Positions 48,918-58,896 of a stretch of 64,000 nucleotides of DNA are shown piece by piece; within the stretch, counting starts at the first letter, position 1; each line of letters starts with the position of its first letter. Where the stretch lies: positions 22,151 to 86,150 of the forward strand of contig NZ_CALUWS010000006.1 of the NCBI RefSeq assembly GCF_944324525.1, given 5' to 3'. Made by a program: the position numbers and the translations under genes. The notes below the pieces were generated by a model. The model was not told where the DNA came from. It did no database searches and saw only the letters and a list, made by a program, of their open reading frames with translations. Source of the stretch: an uncultured Desulfovibrio sp. (lineage in GTDB: Bacteria; Desulfobacterota; Desulfovibrionia; Desulfovibrionales; Desulfovibrionaceae).

Positions 48918-49514
48918 TTATTCAGCAGCCTTGTCCTTCTTGCCGTCCTTCTTGTCCGCCGCGGCGTCCTTGGCGGCTTCCTTCTTGTCGCCGGCCGGTT
49001 CGTCCGCCTTGGGGCCTTCATCGGCAGGGGCATCCAGAGGAGCGAAGTTGACCTTCTGCTTGTTCATTTCCACCAGCAGGTCGTTGGTCACGTCCAGCTT
49101 TTCATCATAGGAGGACAGGGTCTCCGCGCTGAGCAGGACATCATAGCCCTTGGCCTTGCGGAATTCATCCATGACGCGCTTGGTGACGTTCTGCAGCTGG
49201 AAGAGCACGTTCTGCTGCTCTTCGCCCATCTGCTGCTCGGCACTCATGTACACGGTCTGGAGCTGCCGCTGGAGCTGCTCGTTTTCCGGGTCCTTTTCCA
49301 GTTTGGCCTGGATGTCGTCAAGCTGTTTCTGGATGCCCGCCCGCATGTCTTCAAGATATTTGATGCCCGCCTTGCCGGCTTCGCTGTCACGCATGACGCG
49401 CACGAGATCCACGACGGCGATGCTGGGGCCGGAGGCCTTTTCCTCTCCCTGCTGGCAGGCGGCGCACAGCAGGCTCAGCAGCAGGAGCGGAACCGCCATA
49501 AAACGAATACGCAT
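48918..49514 (-). CDS. OmpH/Skp-like lipoprotein
   Basis: A 198-residue protein with a lipoprotein signal (LLLLSLLCAAC, Cys18-20) in place of the usual Skp signal peptide. The OmpH-type body starts IAVVDLVRVMRDSEAGKAG and continues as a long helical hairpin (about 50-130) with heptad-like repeats. The last 35 residues are Lys/Ala/Asp-rich. Skp proteins hold unfolded outer-membrane proteins in the periplasm, but a membrane-anchored version is unusual. It starts at 49514 after GAGGAG. It is 146 bp upstream of the efflux adaptor on the same strand, with a terminator between. Confidence 0.8.
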   Translation of the reverse strand: MRIRFMAVPLLLLSLLCAACQQGEEKASGPSIAVVDLVRVMRDSEAGKAGIKYLEDMRAGIQKQLDDIQAKLEKDPENEQLQRQLQTVYMSAEQQMGEEQQNVLFQLQNVTKRVMDEFRKAKGYDVLLSAETLSSYDEKLDVTNDLLVEMNKQKVNFAPLDAPADEGPKADEPAGDKKEAAKDAAADKKDGKKDKAAE

Positions 49515-49684
49515 GTAGATTCTCCTCTCGCAACGGATGGCCGTTGACGAAATAATTTTTGTAGAGCGGTATGCTACGTTTTTTCGGCAGCCGGCACAAG
49601 CTCTTTTTCCCACGCGCGGGGAGATAGTCCGTGATTGCGAGTCAGGGCGCAGCCGTGTACACTGCCCGAAAAAAAGGACAGCCC

Positions 49685-50590
49685 ATGCACCAACCTTCCA
49701 CGCTTCAGACTCCGGCCATGCAGCGCCTCGACAGCGTTGCGGAGCGTCTTTGCCACGAGGATTCCCTTTCCCGCGTCTGGCATTGTCCGGCCAAGGGCGC
49801 GCCCATGCCGTCCCTGACGATGCTCAGGGAGATCATGGATCGCCTGAGCGCCGCGCTTTTTCCCGGCTATTTCGGGGTGGAGCCTCTGCGCGAAAGCCTG
49901 CGCTACCACCTTTCGGCCAATCTGGACAGCATCTACCGCCTGCTGGGCGGGCAGATCCTTTGCGGCAAGTGCTTTTCCTGCGACGGCACGCAGGGCACCT
50001 GCGAGCAGTGCCGCGAGGACAGCCGCGAGCTGGCGCTTTCCTTCATGGACAGGCTGCCCCACATCCGTTCCCTGCTGGCGGGCGACGCCCAGGCCGCCTA
50101 TGAAGGCGACCCCGCGGCCACCAGTCCCGGCGAAGCCATCTTTTGCTATCCTTCCATGCACACCATGCTCCATCACCGCATAGCCCACGAGCTCTATGCG
50201 CTGCGGGTGCCGCTGGTGCCGCGCATCATTTCCGAGATGGCGCATTCGCAGACGGGCATCGACATCCATCCCGGCGCGACCATCGGCGAGGATTTCTTCA
50301 TCGACCACGGCACCGGCGTGGTCATCGGGGAGACCTGCATCATCGGCCGCAGCTGCCGTCTCTACCAGGGGGTGACGCTGGGGGCGCTCTCCTTCCCCAA
50401 GAATGAGGACGGCACCCTGACCAAGGGCATCGCCCGCCATCCCATCCTGGAAGACAACGTGACCGTCTATGCGGGAGCCACCATCCTGGGCCGCGTGACC
50501 GTGGGCCGGGGCGCTGTCATCGGCGGCAACGTCTGGATCACCGGCGACGTGCCCGCCGGCGCCAAGGTGGCGCAGGAGCGGCCACGATAG
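49685..50590 (+). CDS. cysE: Serine O-acetyltransferase with cysteine-rich insert
   Basis: A 301-residue SAT (EpsC/SrpH type), making O-acetylserine for cysteine synthesis. The N-terminal helical part is followed by the left-handed beta helix with THLHPGA-like SQTGIDIHPGATIGEDFFID, then HGTGVVIGET and the later GVTLGALSFPKN and NVTVYAGATILG repeats. Around residues 95-112 there is CGKCFSCDGTQGTCEQC, five cysteines in CX2CX2C...CX2C spacing, not found in the E. coli enzyme and suggestive of a metal site or redox switch. The start at 49685 follows AAAAAGGACAGCCC. Confidence 0.9.
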   Translation: MHQPSTLQTPAMQRLDSVAERLCHEDSLSRVWHCPAKGAPMPSLTMLREIMDRLSAALFPGYFGVEPLRESLRYHLSANLDSIYRLLGGQILCGKCFSCDGTQGTCEQCREDSRELALSFMDRLPHIRSLLAGDAQAAYEGDPAATSPGEAIFCYPSMHTMLHHRIAHELYALRVPLVPRIISEMAHSQTGIDIHPGATIGEDFFIDHGTGVVIGETCIIGRSCRLYQGVTLGALSFPKNEDGTLTKGIARHPILEDNVTVYAGATILGRVTVGRGAVIGGNVWITGDVPAGAKVAQERPR

Positions 50591-50649
50591 GGCGGGCCCA
50601 TGCCGTCCGGCAGGGGGCGTCCACAGAGCGCGGGATGACGGAGGAAGGG

Positions 50650-50769
50650 ATGCGTTACGCCATGATCCTGATCTGCTGCCTGCTCATGCTGGCGGGCGGC
50701 TGCGGCGTCAAGGTGACGGCCAGAGGGCAGATGGAGGGCGGCGTCGGCGTGGGACAGGGGCTGCGATAG
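50650..50769 (+). CDS. Small lipoprotein (39 residues)
   Basis: ATG at 50650 after ACGGAGGAAGGG. The product is a signal peptide with a lipobox (MRYAMILICCLLMLAGGC, Cys18) and only 21 residues after it, rich in Gly (GGVGVGQGLR). It is too short for most gene callers. Its stop TAG (50767-50769) is also the first three bases of repeat A8 (TAGAGC). A strong ribosome-binding site and a clean lipobox support it; the function is unknown. Confidence 0.6.
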   Translation: MRYAMILICCLLMLAGGCGVKVTARGQMEGGVGVGQGLR

Positions 50770-50918
50770 AGCAATTCCACATTGAAAATGGGGATTGCTC
50801 TGGTAGTCGCGAGAGCGACTACCCGCAAGCGAACACACGGAAAAACCCCGCTTTTTCCGTCGTGTGAGGGCAGCGTCAGCATTGAAATGGGACACGATTT
50901 CCATGCGAATCCGCTCTA
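50767..50918. repeat. Family A-related hairpin repeat, copy A8
   Basis: TAGAGC at 50767 and GCTCTA at 50913 are perfect terminal inverted repeats of a 152-bp element. Inside are three hairpins: GAGCAAT...ATTGCTC, GTAGTCGC-GAGA-GCGACTAC and ACACACGGAAAAA...TTTTTCCGTCGTGT. The middle parts differ from A2-A5, so it is a subfamily. Its left end supplies the stop of the small lipoprotein gene. The gap from 50919 to 51054 holds nothing else that I recognise. Confidence 0.75.
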
Positions 50919-51054
50919 GGGCGGGCCGCCGCCGTCGCTCCCGCTGCCGCGTCTTGCGGTCCGCAACAGAAAACTGGGCATCGACGCGCCGGTCCGCCTT
51001 CAGGCGAAGAGGGCCGGCCGGTGCCGCAAGCATGCTCCATACGGGGAGGCAAGC

Positions 51055-52329
51055 GTGAGAACCGTGCTTCAGGGCGGCGCCGTGGTGCGCCCGGACGGCG
51101 TCTTTGCCGCGGATATTTCCTTTGAGAACGGCCGGATCCTGGAAATAGGGGAGCGTCTGCCCGCTGACGGGGCCGACGTGGTGGACGCCTCGGGCTGCTA
51201 TGTGCTGCCCGGCGCGGTGGATGTGCTGGTGCACTGCCTGCCTGAGCATCTGGAAGCCACCGGGTACGCGGCCGCGCAGGGCGGGACGACCTGTCATGGC
51301 TGGGCCGCGCCCGCAGGCTGCGCAGGGCGGGACGTGCCCGCGCAACTGCCGGTGGATATGGTGCGTCTTGCGCCTCTGGAGGAAGAGGGGAGCACGGCTT
51401 TCCCCCTGCGGCTGCTGGATGCCCTGCGTCTGGAGACGTCCGGCACTGCCGCCGCGCTGCGCGAGGCGGCCCGATCCGGCGCAAGCGTGCTGCTGCGTCC
51501 CGAGCTGCCCGGCCTGTCTCGTTTTCTGGAAGAAGAGCTGCGGGCGGCGGGCCGCACGGCGGTCAGCAACTGGGCGGCCGCCGCGCCGGAATATGTGGAG
51601 GAGGAGGCCGCGCGCCTGGCCCTTTCGCTGGCGCGGGCGGCAGATTGCCGCCTGGCCCTGCTGCCGCTGTCCTCCGGCGGTTCGCTGGAGGCGGTGCGTC
51701 TTGCCCGGCAGCGCCGGCAGCCCGTATGGGCGGCCACCAGTCCGCAATATCTCCTGCTGGACGAGACCGCCTATGAGGAAGGCGCGGCGGAAGGCCTGAA
51801 GTACGCCATGCGCCCGCCGCTGCGTGCGGCGGAACAGGCTGCCCGCCTGTGGGACGCTCTGGCCGCGGGCCTGCTGGATGCCGTGACGTCCGACCATCAC
51901 GATGCGACCTTTGCCGCCAAGTGGGAGGCCGGCGCCGCCGATGCCTTTGCCTGCCCGGCGGGCATCCCGGGGGTGGAAACGCGTCTGCCGCTGCTGTTCT
52001 CGGAAGGGGTGCTCAAAGGGCGTCTGACCCTGCCCCGCTTCGTGCAGTGCCTGTGCGGCAATCCCGCGCAGCTCTTGGGGCTCGGGCAGCGCAAGGGGGA
52101 TCTGCGTCCCGGCTTCGACGCGGACATCTGCCTGCTGGACCCCTCGGAGGAGCGGCTGCTCACGGCGCGGCGGCTGCATCAGGGCGACTACACGCCTTTC
52201 GAGGGGTTGAGCGTGCGCGGCTGGCCGCGGACGGTCTGGCTGCGCGGGAACCGCCTGTCCGTGGACGGCCGCGAAGCGAACCCGGCCCGCACCCGGCACG
52301 GGATGTGGCTTTCCGGCGGCGCGGACTGA
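51055..52329 (+). CDS. Dihydropyrimidinase-like pseudoenzyme lacking metal ligands
   Basis: A 424-residue protein with the overall plan of cyclic amidohydrolases (dihydropyrimidinase/dihydroorotase branch): an N-terminal composite domain, LPGAVDVLVHC at 51-61, SPQYLLLDETAYEE at about 219, MRPPLR, TSDHHD near 278-283 and CGNPAQLLGL. The metal site is broken. The HxH reads LVH (Leu58), the HAEN region reads AVSNWAAA, the VHVSS region reads LLPLSS, and no lysine is evident at the carboxylated position (ASVLLRPEL). Only the Asp of SDHHD clearly remains. There are no frameshifts or stops. It starts with GTG at 51055 after GGGGAGGC. The role is unknown; a scaffold or ligand-sensing job is possible. 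Confidence 0.75.
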   Translation: MRTVLQGGAVVRPDGVFAADISFENGRILEIGERLPADGADVVDASGCYVLPGAVDVLVHCLPEHLEATGYAAAQGGTTCHGWAAPAGCAGRDVPAQLPVDMVRLAPLEEEGSTAFPLRLLDALRLETSGTAAALREAARSGASVLLRPELPGLSRFLEEELRAAGRTAVSNWAAAAPEYVEEEAARLALSLARAADCRLALLPLSSGGSLEAVRLARQRRQPVWAATSPQYLLLDETAYEEGAAEGLKYAMRPPLRAAEQAARLWDALAAGLLDAVTSDHHDATFAAKWEAGAADAFACPAGIPGVETRLPLLFSEGVLKGRLTLPRFVQCLCGNPAQLLGLGQRKGDLRPGFDADICLLDPSEERLLTARRLHQGDYTPFEGLSVRGWPRTVWLRGNRLSVDGREANPARTRHGMWLSGGAD

Positions 52330-52340
52330 CCATATTTGAC

Positions 52341-52369
52341 TTGGCAGACGGGGCGAGGACGCGTATAAC
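52341..52369 (+). promoter_or_regulatory. Promoter of the MarC-family gene
   Basis: TTGGCA (52341-52346), a 17-base spacer and TATAAC (52364-52369), 150 bp before the ATG at 52522. The long leader holds no structure that I recognise. Confidence 0.6.
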
Positions 52370-52521
52370 GCGCCTCACCGGAGGCAATTGTGCGAAATGG
52401 CGGCGCTGCGCACGCCGTACAAGCCCCGCGCATCGCTTCCGGTGACGGCTGGGGCTGCGCTGCGGTCCCGCACTGCCGGTCAGCAGGAACAGTCTTTTTT
52501 GCGCACAGGGGTTTCAGGTTC

Positions 52522-53127
52522 ATGGATCAGAACATCATCAGCGAGGTGGTCAGCACCACCATCAAGATCTACGCCATGATGACGCCGCCTGCCGTGCTCA
52601 GCGCCTTCATCAGCGGCACCAAGGATTACGACAAACGCCGCAAGACGGCCACGGCCATCAAGACCTCAGCGGCGGCCTTCATCATCGGGCTGGTCCTCTA
52701 TCTTTTCGGAGCGCATATCTTTGCGCTCTTTGGTTTTACGCTGGATGCCTTCCGCATCGGATCGGGCGTGCTGCTCTTCCTGACGGCCGTTTCCCTCATG
52801 GGCGAGGAGAAGGACAAGGACCACACCCAGAAGGAAGGGGACATAAGCGTGGTGCCGCTGGCCATCCCCCTCTGCATGGGGCCTGCCTCCATCGGCGCCA
52901 TCATGGTCATCGGCGCATCGGCCAGCACGCTGCGTGAGATCCTGGTGGGCGTGATCTCCCTCCTTTTCGCCGCGCTGGGGATCTTTCTCATGCTGCTCAT
53001 GTCCCACAGCGTGGAGCGCGTGCTGCACAAGACCGGCATCGCCGTGCTGGCCAAGCTGACGGGCCTGCTGCTGGCGGCCATCGCCGCACAGGTGATCTTT
53101 ACGGGGATGAAGGCCTTTTTGAATTAG
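52522..53127 (+). CDS. MarC-family inner-membrane protein
   Basis: A 201-residue protein with six predicted helices. MMTPPAVLSAFISGTKDYDK and VVPLAIPLCMGPASIGAIMV are the two half-repeats, each with the PP/GP motif of the MarC (UPF0056) family. Despite the name the family has no confirmed role in drug resistance; amino-acid export has been proposed for some relatives. It starts at 52522 after a weak ribosome-binding site. It lies between the broken dihydropyrimidinase-like gene and the purine-permease operon. Confidence 0.85.
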   Translation: MDQNIISEVVSTTIKIYAMMTPPAVLSAFISGTKDYDKRRKTATAIKTSAAAFIIGLVLYLFGAHIFALFGFTLDAFRIGSGVLLFLTAVSLMGEEKDKDHTQKEGDISVVPLAIPLCMGPASIGAIMVIGASASTLREILVGVISLLFAALGIFLMLLMSHSVERVLHKTGIAVLAKLTGLLLAAIAAQVIFTGMKAFLN

Positions 53128-53177
53128 GGCCTGTCCACACTATTCGTTGCCTGTTTGGGGGAAGGGTCCTTCCCTCA
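53125..53177. repeat. Family B hairpin repeat, short copy B5
   Basis: TAGGGCCTGTCCACACTATT, then a GTTTGGGGGAAGGG-TCC-TTCCCTC hairpin. The TAG is the stop codon of the MarC gene. The start TAGGGCCTGTC also opens copy B7 at 63838, again at a stop codon. The rest of the gap to 53360 contains a small GGATG...CATCC stem (53307-53339) directly before the permease ribosome-binding site. Confidence 0.6.
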
Positions 53178-53360
53178 GGATACGCCACGCCGAGTGGCGG
53201 CAGGTTCCCCCCGCCTGCCGTACCGGGCTCCCCGGACAGGATGTCCAGACACGATCGACCTGCCGCCGGCGTGCAGCGCGGCAACGGGCGAACTCCCTAA
53301 AAATGCGGATGGCTTGGCGTGCACGGCAAGAGCACATCCGGCAAGGAGAGCATACGGCCC

Positions 53361-54665
53361 ATGATGGAGCGTCTCTTTCGTCTTTCTGCCCACGGCACCA
53401 GCGTTCGTCAGGAATGTCTGGCCGGCCTGACCAGCTTCATGGCCATGTGCTACCTGATCTTTGTCGTGCCCGGCATGCTGGCGGATGCGGGCATGCCGCG
53501 GGAGTCGGTCGTGGCTTCCACCATCTGGGTGACCATCATCGTCACCCTCATCATGGGCTTTTGGGCGCGCTTTCCCGTAGGGGTCGCGCCGGGGCTCGGC
53601 ATCACGGCCTTTTTTGCCTACTATGTCTGCGGGCCCGCCGGTTATACCTGGCAGACCGGACTTGGCGCGGTCTTCATCTCCGGCATCGTCTTCCTGCTGC
53701 TGACCGTGACCCGGGTCCGGCAGATGATCATCGACGCCGTGCCTATGGACCTCAAGTACGCCATCGTGGTGGGGGTCGGCGCGTTCATCGCCTTTATCGG
53801 CATGAAGAATTGCGGGCTGGTGGTGGCGGATGCCTCCACCTTCGTGGCGCTGGGGCATCTGAACGAGGCGTCCACCCTGCTGGCCGTGGCGGGGCTCTTC
53901 CTCATCGGGGCGCTCATGGGGCGCAACGTGCCGGGCGCCATGATCATCGGCATCGTGGCCGTGACGCTGACCGGGCTGGCGCTCGGCGTGAGCCGGCTGC
54001 CGGAGGGCGAGCTGATCTCCTTCAGCGTGCCGCTGCCCACGGAGACGTTCGGGCAGATGGATCTTGCGGGCGCGCTGCATCACGGGCTCTTCTCCATCAT
54101 CTTCACCCTGACCATGGTGGATCTGTTCGACAATATGGGCGTGCTCATCGGGCTGGCGCGCAAGGCGGGCTTCATGCGCGAGGACGGCCATATCGACAAT
54201 CTGGACCGGGCGCTCATCACGGACTCCATCGGCACCATGGCCAGCGCCGTGCTGGGCGCCACCACGGCCACCAGTTATCTGGAATGCGCCGCGGGCGTGG
54301 CCCAGGGCGGGCGCACGGGGCTGACGGCCGTGGTCATCGTGGCCCTGTTCGGGCTGACGCTTTTCTTTGCGCCGCTGGTGGCCGCCGTGCCGGCTTACGC
54401 CACGGCGCCGGTGCTCATCATCGTGGGGGCCCTCATGATGCAGGATGTGGTGCACATACGCTTCCGGGATTTTACGGTGGCCCTGCCCGCCTTCCTGACC
54501 ATCATCACCATGCCGCTGACCTTCAACATCGCCACGGGCTTCGGCTTCGGCTTCATCAGCTTTGTGGCCCTGCGCCTCTTGTGCGGCCGGGGACGCGAGG
54601 TCAGTCCCATCATGTACATCGTGGCCGCCTGTTTTGCCGCCAACTTCATCTTGCGGAGCCTGTGA
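53361..54665 (+). CDS. AzgA-type purine (adenine/guanine/hypoxanthine) permease
   Basis: A 434-residue NCS2 transporter with about 12-14 helices. It begins with the AzgA block EEHGTSVRQE-like RLSAHGTSVRQECLAGLTSF, continues with GVAPGLGITAFFAY, and has the substrate-site region TLTMVDLFDNMGVLIGLARK and the signature GATTATSYLECAAGVAQGGR, typical of AzgA/PbuG purine:proton symporters. The ATG at 53361 (or 53364) follows AAGGAGAGC. The next gene begins one base after its stop, so the permease and the second amidohydrolase-like protein are made together. Confidence 0.88.
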   Translation: MMERLFRLSAHGTSVRQECLAGLTSFMAMCYLIFVVPGMLADAGMPRESVVASTIWVTIIVTLIMGFWARFPVGVAPGLGITAFFAYYVCGPAGYTWQTGLGAVFISGIVFLLLTVTRVRQMIIDAVPMDLKYAIVVGVGAFIAFIGMKNCGLVVADASTFVALGHLNEASTLLAVAGLFLIGALMGRNVPGAMIIGIVAVTLTGLALGVSRLPEGELISFSVPLPTETFGQMDLAGALHHGLFSIIFTLTMVDLFDNMGVLIGLARKAGFMREDGHIDNLDRALITDSIGTMASAVLGATTATSYLECAAGVAQGGRTGLTAVVIVALFGLTLFFAPLVAAVPAYATAPVLIIVGALMMQDVVHIRFRDFTVALPAFLTIITMPLTFNIATGFGFGFISFVALRLLCGRGREVSPIMYIVAACFAANFILRSL

Positions 54666-54666
54666 C

Positions 54667-56004
54667 ATGGAAGCCGATCTCATCCTGAAAGGGGGAACGC
54701 TCATCTGCATGGATCCCCAGCGTTCCGTGCGCCAGGCCGATCTGATCATCAGCGGCGGCCGCATCGCCGCCATCGAGAGCGCGACGCGGCAGAAGGCCCG
54801 GCGCGTCCTGGACGTTCGGGGGGCGGTGGTCCTGCCCGGTTTCGTCCAGTGCCGGACACGGCTGGGCATGAGCTTTTTCCGCTATCCCGAAGAACCGGCC
54901 TCCCGGGACCGGCAGCGGCGGCTGGCCGCGCTGGAGGCGGGGCATGACCGGGCGTCGGCCTTTTCTTCCGCGGCGCTGGGGGTGGCCGAACTGCTGCGCA
55001 GCGGCACCACCGCCGTTCTGGACATGGGGGACGCCACGCAGGCGGAGATGCTTTTTCAGGCCGCCGACGCCATGGGCCTGCGCGGCGCTTTCGGCAGGAC
55101 GCTGGCCGACAAGGGCGAAGGCCTGCCCAAGGCCCTGTGCGCGTCTGTGGAAACGTCCCTCAAGGAGGGGGAAGTCCTTTGCCGTCGCTGGCACAATGCC
55201 GACGGCGGGCGCTTGCGCTATGCGGTGAGCCTGCGGGGCCTCATGTGGAGCAGCAAGGTCCTGCTCGCCAAGGCGGCCCAGACGGCCCGCGGACAGGGCC
55301 TGCTGCTGACCGCCGCCGTCGCTCAGGACAGGGAGGCCCTGCGCGAACTGTCCGAACGCTACGGCGTCGATCCTCTGCGCTATCTGCTGGACAGCGGCTT
55401 TGTGGGGCCGGATACGGTGCTGGCCCAGTGCGACGTCTGCCGCGTCGAAGATTTGCCCCTGCTGGTCCGCAGCGGCGGCAGCATCTGCCATTGCCCGGGC
55501 AATCCCGTCGTGTGCGGCGAAGGGCGCGTGTCCCTGCCGGAGATGCTCTCGGCCGGCGTCAATGTGGCCCTGGGCTGCAGCGATCCCCTGTGGAACCCCG
55601 CTCTGGACATGTTCACGCTCATGCGGCGGGCCATAGAGCTCCAGGAAACGCGGGAGGGCGGCCCGGCGACCCTCTCTCCCCGCGCCGTGCTGGAGATGGC
55701 CACGCTGGGCGGGGCTCGGGCGCTGGGCATGGCCAGCGAGATCGGTTCGCTCATGCCCGGCCGCAAGGCGGACATCACCGTCCTGCGCCTAGATGCGCCG
55801 GATGCGGACGCCCGCGAGGATCTGGTCGCGCATGTGGTGCGTACGGCCACGGCGGCGCAGGTGAGCCATACCCTTGTGGGCGGACGGGTGCTGCTGGATG
55901 AAGGACGTCTGGCCGATGTGGACTGGGAAGGTCTGCTGGTGGAAGCCGCTCGTGAGGCCGCGGCCCTGCGGCGGCGCGCGGGCGACGGGGAGGCCGGCGC
56001 ATGA
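54667..56004 (+). CDS. Guanine-deaminase/SsnA-like amidohydrolase pseudoenzyme lacking metal ligands
   Basis: A 445-residue protein of the aminohydrolase branch (guanine deaminase, SsnA, TrzN plan): ADLILKGGTLICMDPQRSVR, LPGFVQCRTRLGMSFFR (57-73), LPEMLSAGVNVALGCSDPLW and GRKADITVLRLD. The HTH of active relatives is RTR (Arg63, Arg65). The HVAE segment reads TAAVAQD, the HCVHL segment reads QCDVC and GTDG reads GCSD, so the usual metal ligands are missing at every position I can align. No frameshift or stop is seen. It starts one base after the purine permease and overlaps the next transporter by four bases, so it is a maintained operon member. Catalysis of the usual kind seems impossible. 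Confidence 0.78.
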   Translation: MEADLILKGGTLICMDPQRSVRQADLIISGGRIAAIESATRQKARRVLDVRGAVVLPGFVQCRTRLGMSFFRYPEEPASRDRQRRLAALEAGHDRASAFSSAALGVAELLRSGTTAVLDMGDATQAEMLFQAADAMGLRGAFGRTLADKGEGLPKALCASVETSLKEGEVLCRRWHNADGGRLRYAVSLRGLMWSSKVLLAKAAQTARGQGLLLTAAVAQDREALRELSERYGVDPLRYLLDSGFVGPDTVLAQCDVCRVEDLPLLVRSGGSICHCPGNPVVCGEGRVSLPEMLSAGVNVALGCSDPLWNPALDMFTLMRRAIELQETREGGPATLSPRAVLEMATLGGARALGMASEIGSLMPGRKADITVLRLDAPDADAREDLVAHVVRTATAAQVSHTLVGGRVLLDEGRLADVDWEGLLVEAAREAAALRRRAGDGEAGA

Positions 56005-57383
56005 GCGCGCCCCGCGAGATGCTGGGCAGCCGTCTGGGCTTCCTGCTGCTGTCGGCGGGCTGCGCCATCGGTCTGGGCAATGTCTGGCGTTTTCCCTATA
56101 TCGCCGGGGCGTACGGCGGCGCGGCGCTGGTGGGCATCTATCTGCTCTGCCTGCTGGCGGTGGCGCCCATCCTGGTCATGGAACTGGCCGTGGGCCGAGC
56201 GGCGCGCTGCAACATGGGGCGCGCCCTGCGGGTGCTGGAGCCGGAGGGCACGCACTGGCACCGCTGCGGCTGGTTCGCGCTGGTGGGCAGCTATCTGCTC
56301 ATGATGTTCTATACCACCGTCACGGGCTGGCTGCTGGCCTACTGCTGGTACATGGCCTCCGGGGCGCTGGCGGGGCGCGACCCCGCGGGCGTGGGGGCCT
56401 TTTTCGGGCAGATGCTGGCCACGCCCTCGGTACATGTGCTGTCCATGAGCGTGGTGGTCGGGCTGGGCTGCCTGATCTGCGCGCTGGGCGTGCGCCGGGG
56501 CGTGGAGCGGGTGGTCAAGCTCATGATGCTGGGCCTGCTGCTCATCCTCGTGCTGCTGGTGCTGCGGGCCGTGACCCTGCCGGGAGCGGGGGAGGGCATC
56601 GCCTTCTATCTGGCCCCCGATGTGGCGCGCCTGCGGGAGGCCGGGCTGTTCACCGCCATCAATGAAGCCATCAAGCAGGCCTTTTTCACCATCTCCGTGG
56701 GCATCGGCTCCATGACCATCTTCGGCAGTTATCAGCCGAAGGAACGTTCGCTCACCGGCGAGGCGGCCCTCATCGTGGGGCTGGACACCTTTGTGGCGCT
56801 CATGGCCGGGCTGATCATCTTTCCGGCCTGCTTTGCCTTTGGCGTCAATCCCGATGCCGGGCCGGGCCTCGTGTTCGTGACTCTGCCCAATATCTTCAAC
56901 AGCATGCAGGGCGGGCAGATCTGGGGGACGCTCTTCTTCATCTTCATGGGCTTTGCGGCCCTGTCCACGGTCATCGCCGTGTTCGAGAACATCATCTCCT
57001 ACAGCGTGGACGTCTGGGGCATGTCCCGCCGGCGGGCCACCCTGCTGCACTTCGTCGGTCTCTGGATCTGTTCTTTGCCCTGCGGTCTGGGTTTCAACGT
57101 GCTGGCCGGTTTCCAGCCGCTGGGGCCGGGCACCAACGTGCTGGATCTGGAGGATTTCCTCATCAGCAACAACCTGCTGTTCGCCGGGACGCTGCTCTTT
57201 CTCTTCTTCTGCACCAGCCGGCGCGGCTGGGGCTGGGAGAACTTCCTTGCCGAGACCAACGCCGGGAAGGGGCTGCGCTTCCCGTCCTGGCTGCGGGTCT
57301 ATCTGCGCTGGGTGCTGCCCTGCCTGATCCTGCTCATCTTCATTATGGGCTATGTGGAGCGTCTGGAAAAGCTGCTGCGGTGA
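56001..57383 (+). CDS. NSS/SNF-family sodium-dependent transporter (first of two)
   Basis: A 460-residue neurotransmitter:sodium symporter relative with about 11-12 helices. The LeuT-like start SRLGFLLLSAGCAIGLGNVW then RFPYIAGAYGG holds the sodium- and substrate-binding unwound part of TM1; GYSLF-like SVGIGSMTIFGSYQ and GLIIFPACFAFG follow. Bacterial members carry amino acids or related amines. The start overlaps the previous gene by four bases (ATGA), so it belongs to the permease operon. It is very similar to the next gene. Confidence 0.92.
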   Translation: MSAPREMLGSRLGFLLLSAGCAIGLGNVWRFPYIAGAYGGAALVGIYLLCLLAVAPILVMELAVGRAARCNMGRALRVLEPEGTHWHRCGWFALVGSYLLMMFYTTVTGWLLAYCWYMASGALAGRDPAGVGAFFGQMLATPSVHVLSMSVVVGLGCLICALGVRRGVERVVKLMMLGLLLILVLLVLRAVTLPGAGEGIAFYLAPDVARLREAGLFTAINEAIKQAFFTISVGIGSMTIFGSYQPKERSLTGEAALIVGLDTFVALMAGLIIFPACFAFGVNPDAGPGLVFVTLPNIFNSMQGGQIWGTLFFIFMGFAALSTVIAVFENIISYSVDVWGMSRRRATLLHFVGLWICSLPCGLGFNVLAGFQPLGPGTNVLDLEDFLISNNLLFAGTLLFLFFCTSRRGWGWENFLAETNAGKGLRFPSWLRVYLRWVLPCLILLIFIMGYVERLEKLLR

Positions 57384-57516
57384 GCGCGGCGGGCTGCTGC
57401 TCCGCGAGCGGCGGACAGGGCGGCATTGCGTCATGGGCCGGACTGGGCTATGGTAGGCGGCTGCGCGCGGGCCCGCCGCCTTGCGCGCGGGACTTCATCC
57501 GCAAGAGGATCAGCTC

Positions 57517-58896
57517 ATGTCTGAACATGCGCAACGTGAAATGTTGGGCAGCCGCCTCGGCTTTCTGCTGCTGTCGGCAGGCTGCGCCATCGGCCTCGGC
57601 AACGTCTGGCGTTTCCCCTACATCACAGGGGCGTATGGCGGGGCCATCTTTGTGGGGATCTACCTCCTTTGTCTGGTGGCGGTGGTGCCGACCATGATCA
57701 TGGAGTTCGCCGTGGGCCGCGCCGCCCGCCGCAACATGGGCCTGGCCTTCCGCCTGCTGGAGCCCAGGGGCAGCCAGTGGCATCACTGCGGCTGGTTCGC
57801 GCTGGTGGGCAGCTATCTGCTCATGATGTTCTACACCACCGTGACGGGCTGGATGCTGGCGTACTGCTGGTACATGGCTTCCGGCGAGCTGAGCGGCCTT
57901 GCCCCCGAGGCGGTGGGCGCCTTTTTCGGCGCGACCCTCGGCAAGCCCGACGTGCAGGTCATCGGCATGACGCTGGTGGTGCTCATCGGCTGCGGCGTCT
58001 GCGCGCTGGGCGTGCAGAAGGGCGTGGAGCGGGTGGTCAAGCTCATGATGCTGGGCCTGCTGCTCATCCTCGTGGCGCTGGTGCTGCGTTCCGTCACTCT
58101 GCCGGGCGCCGGGGCGGGCATCGCCTTCTATCTGGCGCCGGATGCCGCCAAGATCGAACAGACCGGTCTGTTTGCCGTCATCAATGCGGCCATGAACCAG
58201 GCTTTCTTCACCCTGTCGGTGGGCATCGGGGCCATGTGCATCTTCGGCAGCTATCAGCCGAAGGATCGCGCCCTCACCGGCGAGGCCGTGTGGATCGTGG
58301 GACTGGACACCTTCGTGGCCATCATGGCCGGACTGATCATCTTTCCGGCCTGCTTCGCCTTCGGCGTCAAGCCCGACGCCGGGCCGGGCCTCGTGTTCGT
58401 GACGCTGCCCAACATCTTCAACAGCATGGAGGGCGGCCGCATCTGGGGGGCGCTCTTCTTCGTCTTCATGAGTTTTGCGGCCCTGTCCACGGTCATCGCC
58501 GTGTTCGAGAACATCATCTCCTATACGGCGGACGTCTGGGGCATCCCGCGGCGGCGCGGCACGGTGCTGCACATGATCGGCCTCTGGGTGCTTTCCCTGC
58601 CCTGTGCGCTGGGCTTCAACCTGCTGGCGGACTTCCAGCCGCTGGGGGCGGGTTCTTCCGTGCTCGATCTGGAGGACTTCCTCATCAGCAACAACATCCT
58701 TCCGCTGGGCGGGCTGATCTTCCTGCTGTTCTGCACCATGCGCCGCGCCTGGGGCTGGGACAACTTCATCACCGAGGTGGACATGGGCGAAGGCCTCAAG
58801 TTCCCGCGCTGGCTGCGCGGCTATCTGACCTATGTGCTGCCCTGTCTCATCGTCTTCGTACTGGCAATGGGCTATGTGGACAAGTTCTGGAAGTAG
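57517..58896 (+). CDS. NSS/SNF-family sodium-dependent transporter (second of two)
   Basis: A 459-residue tandem paralog of the preceding transporter, with about three quarters of residues identical by eye (for example SRLGFLLLSAGCAIGLGNVW and GLIIFPACFAFGVKPDAGPG). Differences cluster in loops and near residues 125-150. The ATG at 57517 follows GAGGATCAGCTC. The 133-bp spacer to the first copy has no terminator. It is probably a recent duplication with the same or a related amino-acid substrate. Confidence 0.92.
   Translation: MSEHAQREMLGSRLGFLLLSAGCAIGLGNVWRFPYITGAYGGAIFVGIYLLCLVAVVPTMIMEFAVGRAARRNMGLAFRLLEPRGSQWHHCGWFALVGSYLLMMFYTTVTGWMLAYCWYMASGELSGLAPEAVGAFFGATLGKPDVQVIGMTLVVLIGCGVCALGVQKGVERVVKLMMLGLLLILVALVLRSVTLPGAGAGIAFYLAPDAAKIEQTGLFAVINAAMNQAFFTLSVGIGAMCIFGSYQPKDRALTGEAVWIVGLDTFVAIMAGLIIFPACFAFGVKPDAGPGLVFVTLPNIFNSMEGGRIWGALFFVFMSFAALSTVIAVFENIISYTADVWGIPRRRGTVLHMIGLWVLSLPCALGFNLLADFQPLGAGSSVLDLEDFLISNNILPLGGLIFLLFCTMRRAWGWDNFITEVDMGEGLKFPRWLRGYLTYVLPCLIVFVLAMGYVDKFWK

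Follow-up and report, generated by a model that had tools for sequence, protein, structure and literature searches.

Why would a bacterium keep, on either side of a purine permease gene, two intact genes for amidohydrolase-fold proteins that have both lost ligands of their metal sites? The question is raised by an uncultured Desulfovibrio sp. (assembly GCF_944324525.1), in which we analysed a stretch of 64,000 nucleotides (contig NZ_CALUWS010000006.1, positions 22,151 to 86,150 of the forward strand; hereafter the window, whose numbering is used throughout). The first protein, AH1 (51055-52329, plus strand), has 424 residues from a GTG start and is a dihydropyrimidinase (HyuA)-type protein; the second, AH2 (54667-56004, plus strand), has 445 residues and is a PRK07228-type aminohydrolase relative. 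A preliminary description, made from the letters alone, took both genes to be full length without stops or frameshifts, and both frames are indeed open. Here we find that ligands are lost in every ortholog found and that both proteins are under purifying selection. The reading that we favour, with moderate confidence, is that the two proteins are pseudoenzymes fixed in their lineages, which outlived the loss of a pathway and were retained for a non-catalytic task, perhaps serving purine uptake as binding modules or scaffolds.

Metal Ligands Are Lost in All AH1 and AH2 Orthologs Found

As the preliminary description had proposed, the locus was sought in other genomes, using a same-genus set of 79 and a class-wide set of 348. 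At an E value of 1e-30, 16 of the 79 give a match to AH1: 11 orthologs, at 48-100% identity, and five more distant proteins (32-42%), which are intact. Orthologs of AH2 (71-100% identity) occur in six same-genus genomes, all within the 11 that carry AH1. The named cultured species D. piger ATCC 29098 (L149) is an AH1 carrier, and five of the six AH2-bearing genomes (L140-L143 and L180) are Desulfovibrio metagenome assemblies; the counts of absence given below rest partly on draft genomes.

Against the dihydropyrimidinase/D-hydantoinase model TIGR02033, AH1 scores 257.9 bits, below the cut-off of 393.25. The binuclear site of this family comprises an HxH motif, a carboxylated lysine, two histidines and an aspartate, and the full set is present in none of the 11 orthologs. 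The first histidine of HxH is Leu58 in the window protein (five Leu, one Cys and five Gln across the orthologs), the HAEN segment has become RPEL or unrelated letters, the next ligand histidine has given way to proline (PLSS, PVSS and similar), and the lysine stretch has drifted. All these replacements had been named in the preliminary description, but the loss is not total in this genome, which keeps two ligands of its family: the second histidine of HxH (His60; present in five of the 11 and otherwise Arg or Cys) and the aspartate (Asp280; retained in seven, and Ala in a four-genome clade that includes D. piger). The HxH motif, both single histidines and the aspartate are intact in all ten non-orthologous AH1-type proteins of one alignment, and the lysine is present in both of the two rows for which its column was printed. 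Among relatives from outside the genus, taken from the class-wide set at E 1e-52 or 1e-50, 11 of 11 are intact, lysine included. The barrel of AH1 is also shorter than that of intact relatives, by about 40 residues. Judged by its sequence, AH1 is a dihydropyrimidinase relative with lost metal ligands, in the manner of the animal collapsin response mediator proteins (CRMPs).

AH2 had been likened to guanine deaminase and SsnA, an assignment that does not hold: these models give 118.4 and 91.7 bits (TIGR03314 for SsnA), as against 296.8 for the PRK07228 aminohydrolase. Both PRK07228 and TIGR03314 have curated cut-offs above the scores of AH2 (522 and 455.5 bits, respectively). An SsnA origin was rejected by model score, and SsnA was left out of the tree described below. 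The set of HxH, two histidines and an aspartate is complete in none of the six AH2 orthologs. HTH reads RTR (HTR in one of the six), the strand-5 HTH has become T-A and the like, with A/A/D/G/G/S in column 217, where family knowledge places the ligand histidine, and the strand-6 histidine is Gln254 in all six. The alignments thus bear out the RTR and the other changed ligand segments of the preliminary description, with one possible exception: the aspartate column 305 reads S/N/S/N/Q/D, and an aspartate one column later (306) in all six orthologs may represent a one-residue shift of this ligand. The corresponding AH2 alignment covered 47 of 49 AH2-type loci (L033 gave no match, and L034, a partial gene, was left out), and 41 of 41 non-orthologs keep HxH, the strand-5 and strand-6 histidines and the aspartate. 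From outside the genus, 17 of 17 rows are intact, equivalent to 16 genes because L170 and L192 are the same gene; one comparison used ten of these rows.

AH2 has also gained cysteines. All six orthologs have cysteine at positions 14, 62, 172, 258, 274 and 283, where none of the 17 intact rows does. Four of these positions fall within or next to old ligand motifs, whereas the Cys columns 145, 195 and 431 of intact relatives are mostly lost. This count was made after the fact.

Could intact ligands be hidden by misalignment? The register was checked for each protein by multiple alignment and by profile-profile alignment (probability 100%, almost end to end), the latter using eight of the 11 orthologs for AH1, as did its list of invariant residues. 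Together with the invariant-residue lists, the profile-profile alignments rule this out, except for the possible shift of the AH2 aspartate. Mutation of this strain alone, or a sequencing error, is rejected as well, because all orthologs found share the ligand losses. The former ligand columns are variable, with no substitute set (columns 217 and 305 in AH2; 58, with Leu/Cys/Gln, and 60, with His/Arg/Cys, in AH1). Of the three findings that the preliminary description had named as speaking against it, neither intact ligands elsewhere, apart from the possibly shifted AH2 aspartate, nor a lone mutated strain was thus observed; the third, a ratio of nonsynonymous to synonymous substitution rates (dN/dS) near 1, was not observed either.

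AH1 and AH2 Are under Purifying Selection

Both proteins are under purifying selection. Across ten pairs among five genomes, mean dN/dS is 0.21 for AH1 (dS 0.40-0.58) and 0.17 for AH2 (dS 0.26-0.49), with codon-bootstrap ranges (60 draws) of 0.17-0.26 and 0.13-0.22, respectively; eight neighbouring genes gave values from 0.066 (a gene that we take to be cysE) to 0.163 (the permease). G068 is not among these pairs, nor, in the case of AH1, are G008 and D. piger, and the coding stretches are tblastn segments, some with clipped ends. Six pairs in the D. piger clade, where AH1 shares about 49% identity with the window protein, gave 0.06-0.26.

Where along the chains does this constraint act? AH1 shows a dN/dS of 0.20 over codons 1-80 and 0.11 over codons 241-400, and residues invariant in the 11 orthologs make up five of the 80 positions in 81-160 and 83 of the 160 in 241-400, the N-terminal strands and the C-terminal half being most tightly held. 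Regional values for AH2 range from 0.08 to 0.29; constraint is spread along the chain, with 285 of 445 positions invariant in six genomes. Regional dN/dS and the pattern of invariant residues together indicate that selection holds the fold and not the old active site. The proposal that selection favours a non-catalytic role is therefore supported, by shared losses and by dN/dS, insofar as it concerns something other than the ancestral catalysis; the sensing, transport coupling and scaffolding that had been suggested are not told apart by these results.

Intact Relatives of Both Proteins Occur in Purine/Urate Clusters

From which enzymes might the two proteins descend? AH1 is placed with HyuA-type dihydropyrimidinases (support 99/98 and 96/97 for successive groups), and AH2 with PRK07228-type aminohydrolases (100/99), in a tree that leaves out L192 as the same gene as L170 and uses 14 of the other intact relatives. 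The AH2 stem measures 1.39 changes per site, as against 0.49-0.94 for the intact tips, counted from the same fork; such a long stem suggests a burst at a change of function, followed by constraint.

Gene contexts were read for ten of the 21 intact AH1-type rows and for six AH2-type genes from outside the genus. YgfK lies near the AH1-like gene in eight of the ten (all except L226 and L228). The intact AH2-type gene stands directly behind an AZG-type permease in five of the six, and the sixth region (G238) has no permease match in 18 kb. Permease identity in these pairs is 43-44% for L219-L222 and 66% for L170 and L224; four permease-linked PRK07228-type relatives that were tested score 568.9-662.4 bits, over the cut-off, and keep their ligands. 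A single cluster in another genus, g49, combines HyuA, YgfK, XdhD and XdhA with a xanthine permease, an AZG-type permease and an AH2-type hydrolase. Because intact relatives of both proteins thus share one purine/urate cluster, AH1 and AH2 are plausibly survivors of one lost pathway, and their joint survival its remnant. That two losses should fall in one locus, which the preliminary description found striking, is accordingly less of a coincidence, while the losses themselves stand.

The g49 cluster resembles the reductive uric acid degradation cluster, which includes SsnA according to the part of the source available (PMC12507026), but its permease-linked hydrolase scores as PRK07228 and not as SsnA, and might take SsnA's step. 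SsnA did not come to notice in the 20 kb of the urate-type cluster inspected in L219-L222 of g49, where no search was aimed at it. Within the genus, G017 (L108) and G102 (L109) have a urate-type cluster (YgfK, YgeW, YgeY and a selenium-type xanthine dehydrogenase) together with an intact HyuA-type protein.

The AH1 loci themselves show no reductive uric acid degradation cluster: at E 1e-20, none of the 11 has a match to YgfK, XdhD, XdhA, YgeW, YgeY or the xanthine permease. Genome-wide, neither YgfK nor XdhA exceeds its cut-off in any of the 11 AH1 genomes, as compared with three and four, respectively, of four comparators. Matches below the cut-offs exist (for XdhA, G006 has the best, with 472.5 of 780 bits), and draft status applies to several genomes, one of them 81% complete. 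The search for YgeW, YgeY and the remaining cluster genes covered the loci, not whole genomes.

Discussion

How do AH1 and AH2 compare with known amidohydrolase pseudoenzymes? The animal pseudo-dihydropyrimidinase CRMP-4, as far as the accessible text describes it, has no enzyme activity and keeps two of six metal-binding residues, with Leu in place of Lys (PMC4051505). AH1 of this genome likewise keeps two ligands, the second histidine and the aspartate, but it differs from the CRMPs in being bacterial, in its shortened barrel and in its position near a purine permease. The pseudo-dihydroorotase of class A2 aspartate transcarbamoylase is inactive, yet needed for transcarbamoylase activity (PMC7053772, in part). 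Like it, AH1 is a retained bacterial amidohydrolase-fold chain that is predicted to be inactive; unlike it, AH1 fits dihydropyrimidinase models better and has no aspartate transcarbamoylase gene among its conserved neighbours, both of which speak against a pseudo-dihydroorotase identity. With HyuA of the reductive uric acid cluster, AH1 shares its grouping with HyuA-type proteins found beside YgfK, YgeW and YgeY, but it lacks the ligands, and all 11 of its loci lack the other cluster genes. AH2, finally, shares the permease-hydrolase order of the permease-linked PRK07228-type aminohydrolases (5'-deoxyadenosine deaminase in NCBIfam), but not their ligands or their scores. The known pseudo-amidohydrolases in the accessible portions of the cited papers, CRMPs and pseudo-dihydroorotases, act as scaffolds or assembly partners (PMC4051505, PMC7053772), whereas here two members from different branches of the superfamily lie near a purine transporter; the open-licence literature searched yielded no report of a transporter-linked pseudoenzyme pair of this kind. 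The retention of AH1 and AH2 in genomes without the tested urate-pathway enzymes makes the fate of pathway enzymes after pathway loss directly testable, with the intact clusters of G017 and G102 as same-genus controls and D. piger as a named cultured carrier of AH1.

What might the two proteins do? The NCS2 purine permease at 53319-54665 (plus strand; Pfam Xan_ur_permease) is of the adenine/guanine (AZG) type, a substrate predicted from its closest solved structures, AZG1 (195.4 bits) and AZG2 (166.1 bits). AH2 starts one base past the permease stop and overlaps the start of a sodium symporter by four bases; this coupling, noted in the preliminary description, was confirmed and recurs in all six AH2 genomes. 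Given a conserved neighbourhood of transport genes and the coupling of AH2 to the permease and the symporter, our best guess is that the two proteins have a binding role in purine uptake. We envision a scenario whereby the loss of a urate-type pathway left both hydrolases behind with the permease; a burst of change would then have cost them their catalysis, and a non-catalytic task would have preserved them, most likely as soluble oligomers. Such modules would bind a ligand derived from purines, or else a protein partner (the permease or the symporter), and might thereby tune purine uptake. In a more specific version, AH1 and AH2, together or singly, would form a cytosolic sensing or gating module of the permease and the coupled symporters, built from parts of the lost urate-degradation pathway. 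We regard this version as unlikely, the more so because an AH1 ortholog is lacking in 45 of the 56 genomes of the genus that have the permease (E 1e-100).

Several observations weigh against our favoured reading as a whole. With 50 of those 56 genomes also lacking AH2, the permease needs neither protein, and any role in uptake would be an added refinement. AH2 is absent from five of the 11 AH1 genomes, having been either lost there or gained in the six. A MarC gene separates AH1 from the permease in seven of the 11, so that the two need not share a transcript. The nearest join of AH1 in its tree is weak (81/52) and carries a long-branch warning, and G157, the genome with the closest permease-AH2-like pair (L170), has XdhA and no YgfK over the cut-off. 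AlphaFold models, from alignments of 7-8 rows, reached mean predicted local distance difference test (pLDDT) scores of 34.4 and 37.0 for the two proteins and support nothing. Among the ten genes tested, moreover, AH1 evolves fastest, and it is loosest in the old active-site region, where codons 81-165 reach a dN/dS of 0.43.

This looseness would also be expected if AH1 and AH2 were slowly decaying, still-open relics of the lost pathway, AH2 remaining open since a stop within its tightly coupled run would hurt the symporter. The absence of the tested pathway enzymes, and of both genes from most permease-bearing relatives, fits such decay as well. We nevertheless consider it unlikely: dN/dS lies far below 1 and is low in two separate AH1 clades, and the invariant positions of AH2 exceed what an open frame needs. 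Nor did a partly decayed copy turn up at E 0.01 in genomes without AH1 or AH2, where the search covered seven gaps behind cysE (those of L144, L146 and L162 extending as far as marC) and one permease-symporter gap.

Might the proteins instead be enzymes of another kind, or partners of enzymes? A metal-free reaction, or a new AH2 site made from the gained cysteines, is suggested by the invariance of these residues and by the conserved Arg65, Gln254, His275 and Asp306 of AH2, which could make a pocket. Former ligand columns vary among orthologs, however, as expected of an unused site. In the barrel, residues adjoining an inward-facing histidine point outward, so that the gained cysteines probably do not meet, and their count was post hoc; we hold a changed chemistry to be improbable. 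Equally little weight goes to the idea that AH1 and AH2 join in the assembly of other enzymes, such as active hydrolases, rather than of transporters, for which the pseudo-dihydroorotase required for transcarbamoylase activity (PMC7053772, in part) is a precedent. Each of the six AH2 genomes does have a further AH2 relative (32-33% identity), which in this genome (L001) is intact, but AH1 has a single further match, at 32%, in its own genome, and the genes conserved around the locus encode transporters and housekeeping functions rather than hydrolases.

Layout and Other Features of the Locus

The genes run in the order cysE, AH1, marC, AZG-type permease, AH2, two SNF-type symporters, lepB and comM, where cysE, lepB and comM are names presumed from the translations and not from a family search. 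The MarC-family membrane protein (Pfam MarC; 52390-53127, plus strand) is counted from its first GTG, and its true start may be later. Both symporters are on the plus strand and match Pfam SNF; the one that overlaps AH2 spans 56001-57383 and the second, which adjoins it, 57481-58896. The tandem copies are about 75% alike in cross-matches and occur as a pair in all 11 AH1 genomes, as opposed to a single symporter at the other named permease loci with an adjoining one.

Scans of viral contigs yielded no relative, and an Rfam scan of 49500-57500 gave no match above thresholds. Between cysE and AH1 lies a dispersed repeat of about 150 bases (50771-50922), single-copy in the window, with at least 42 matches, some partial, at 78-100% identity in the same genome of 93 contigs (40 of 87 candidates scored).

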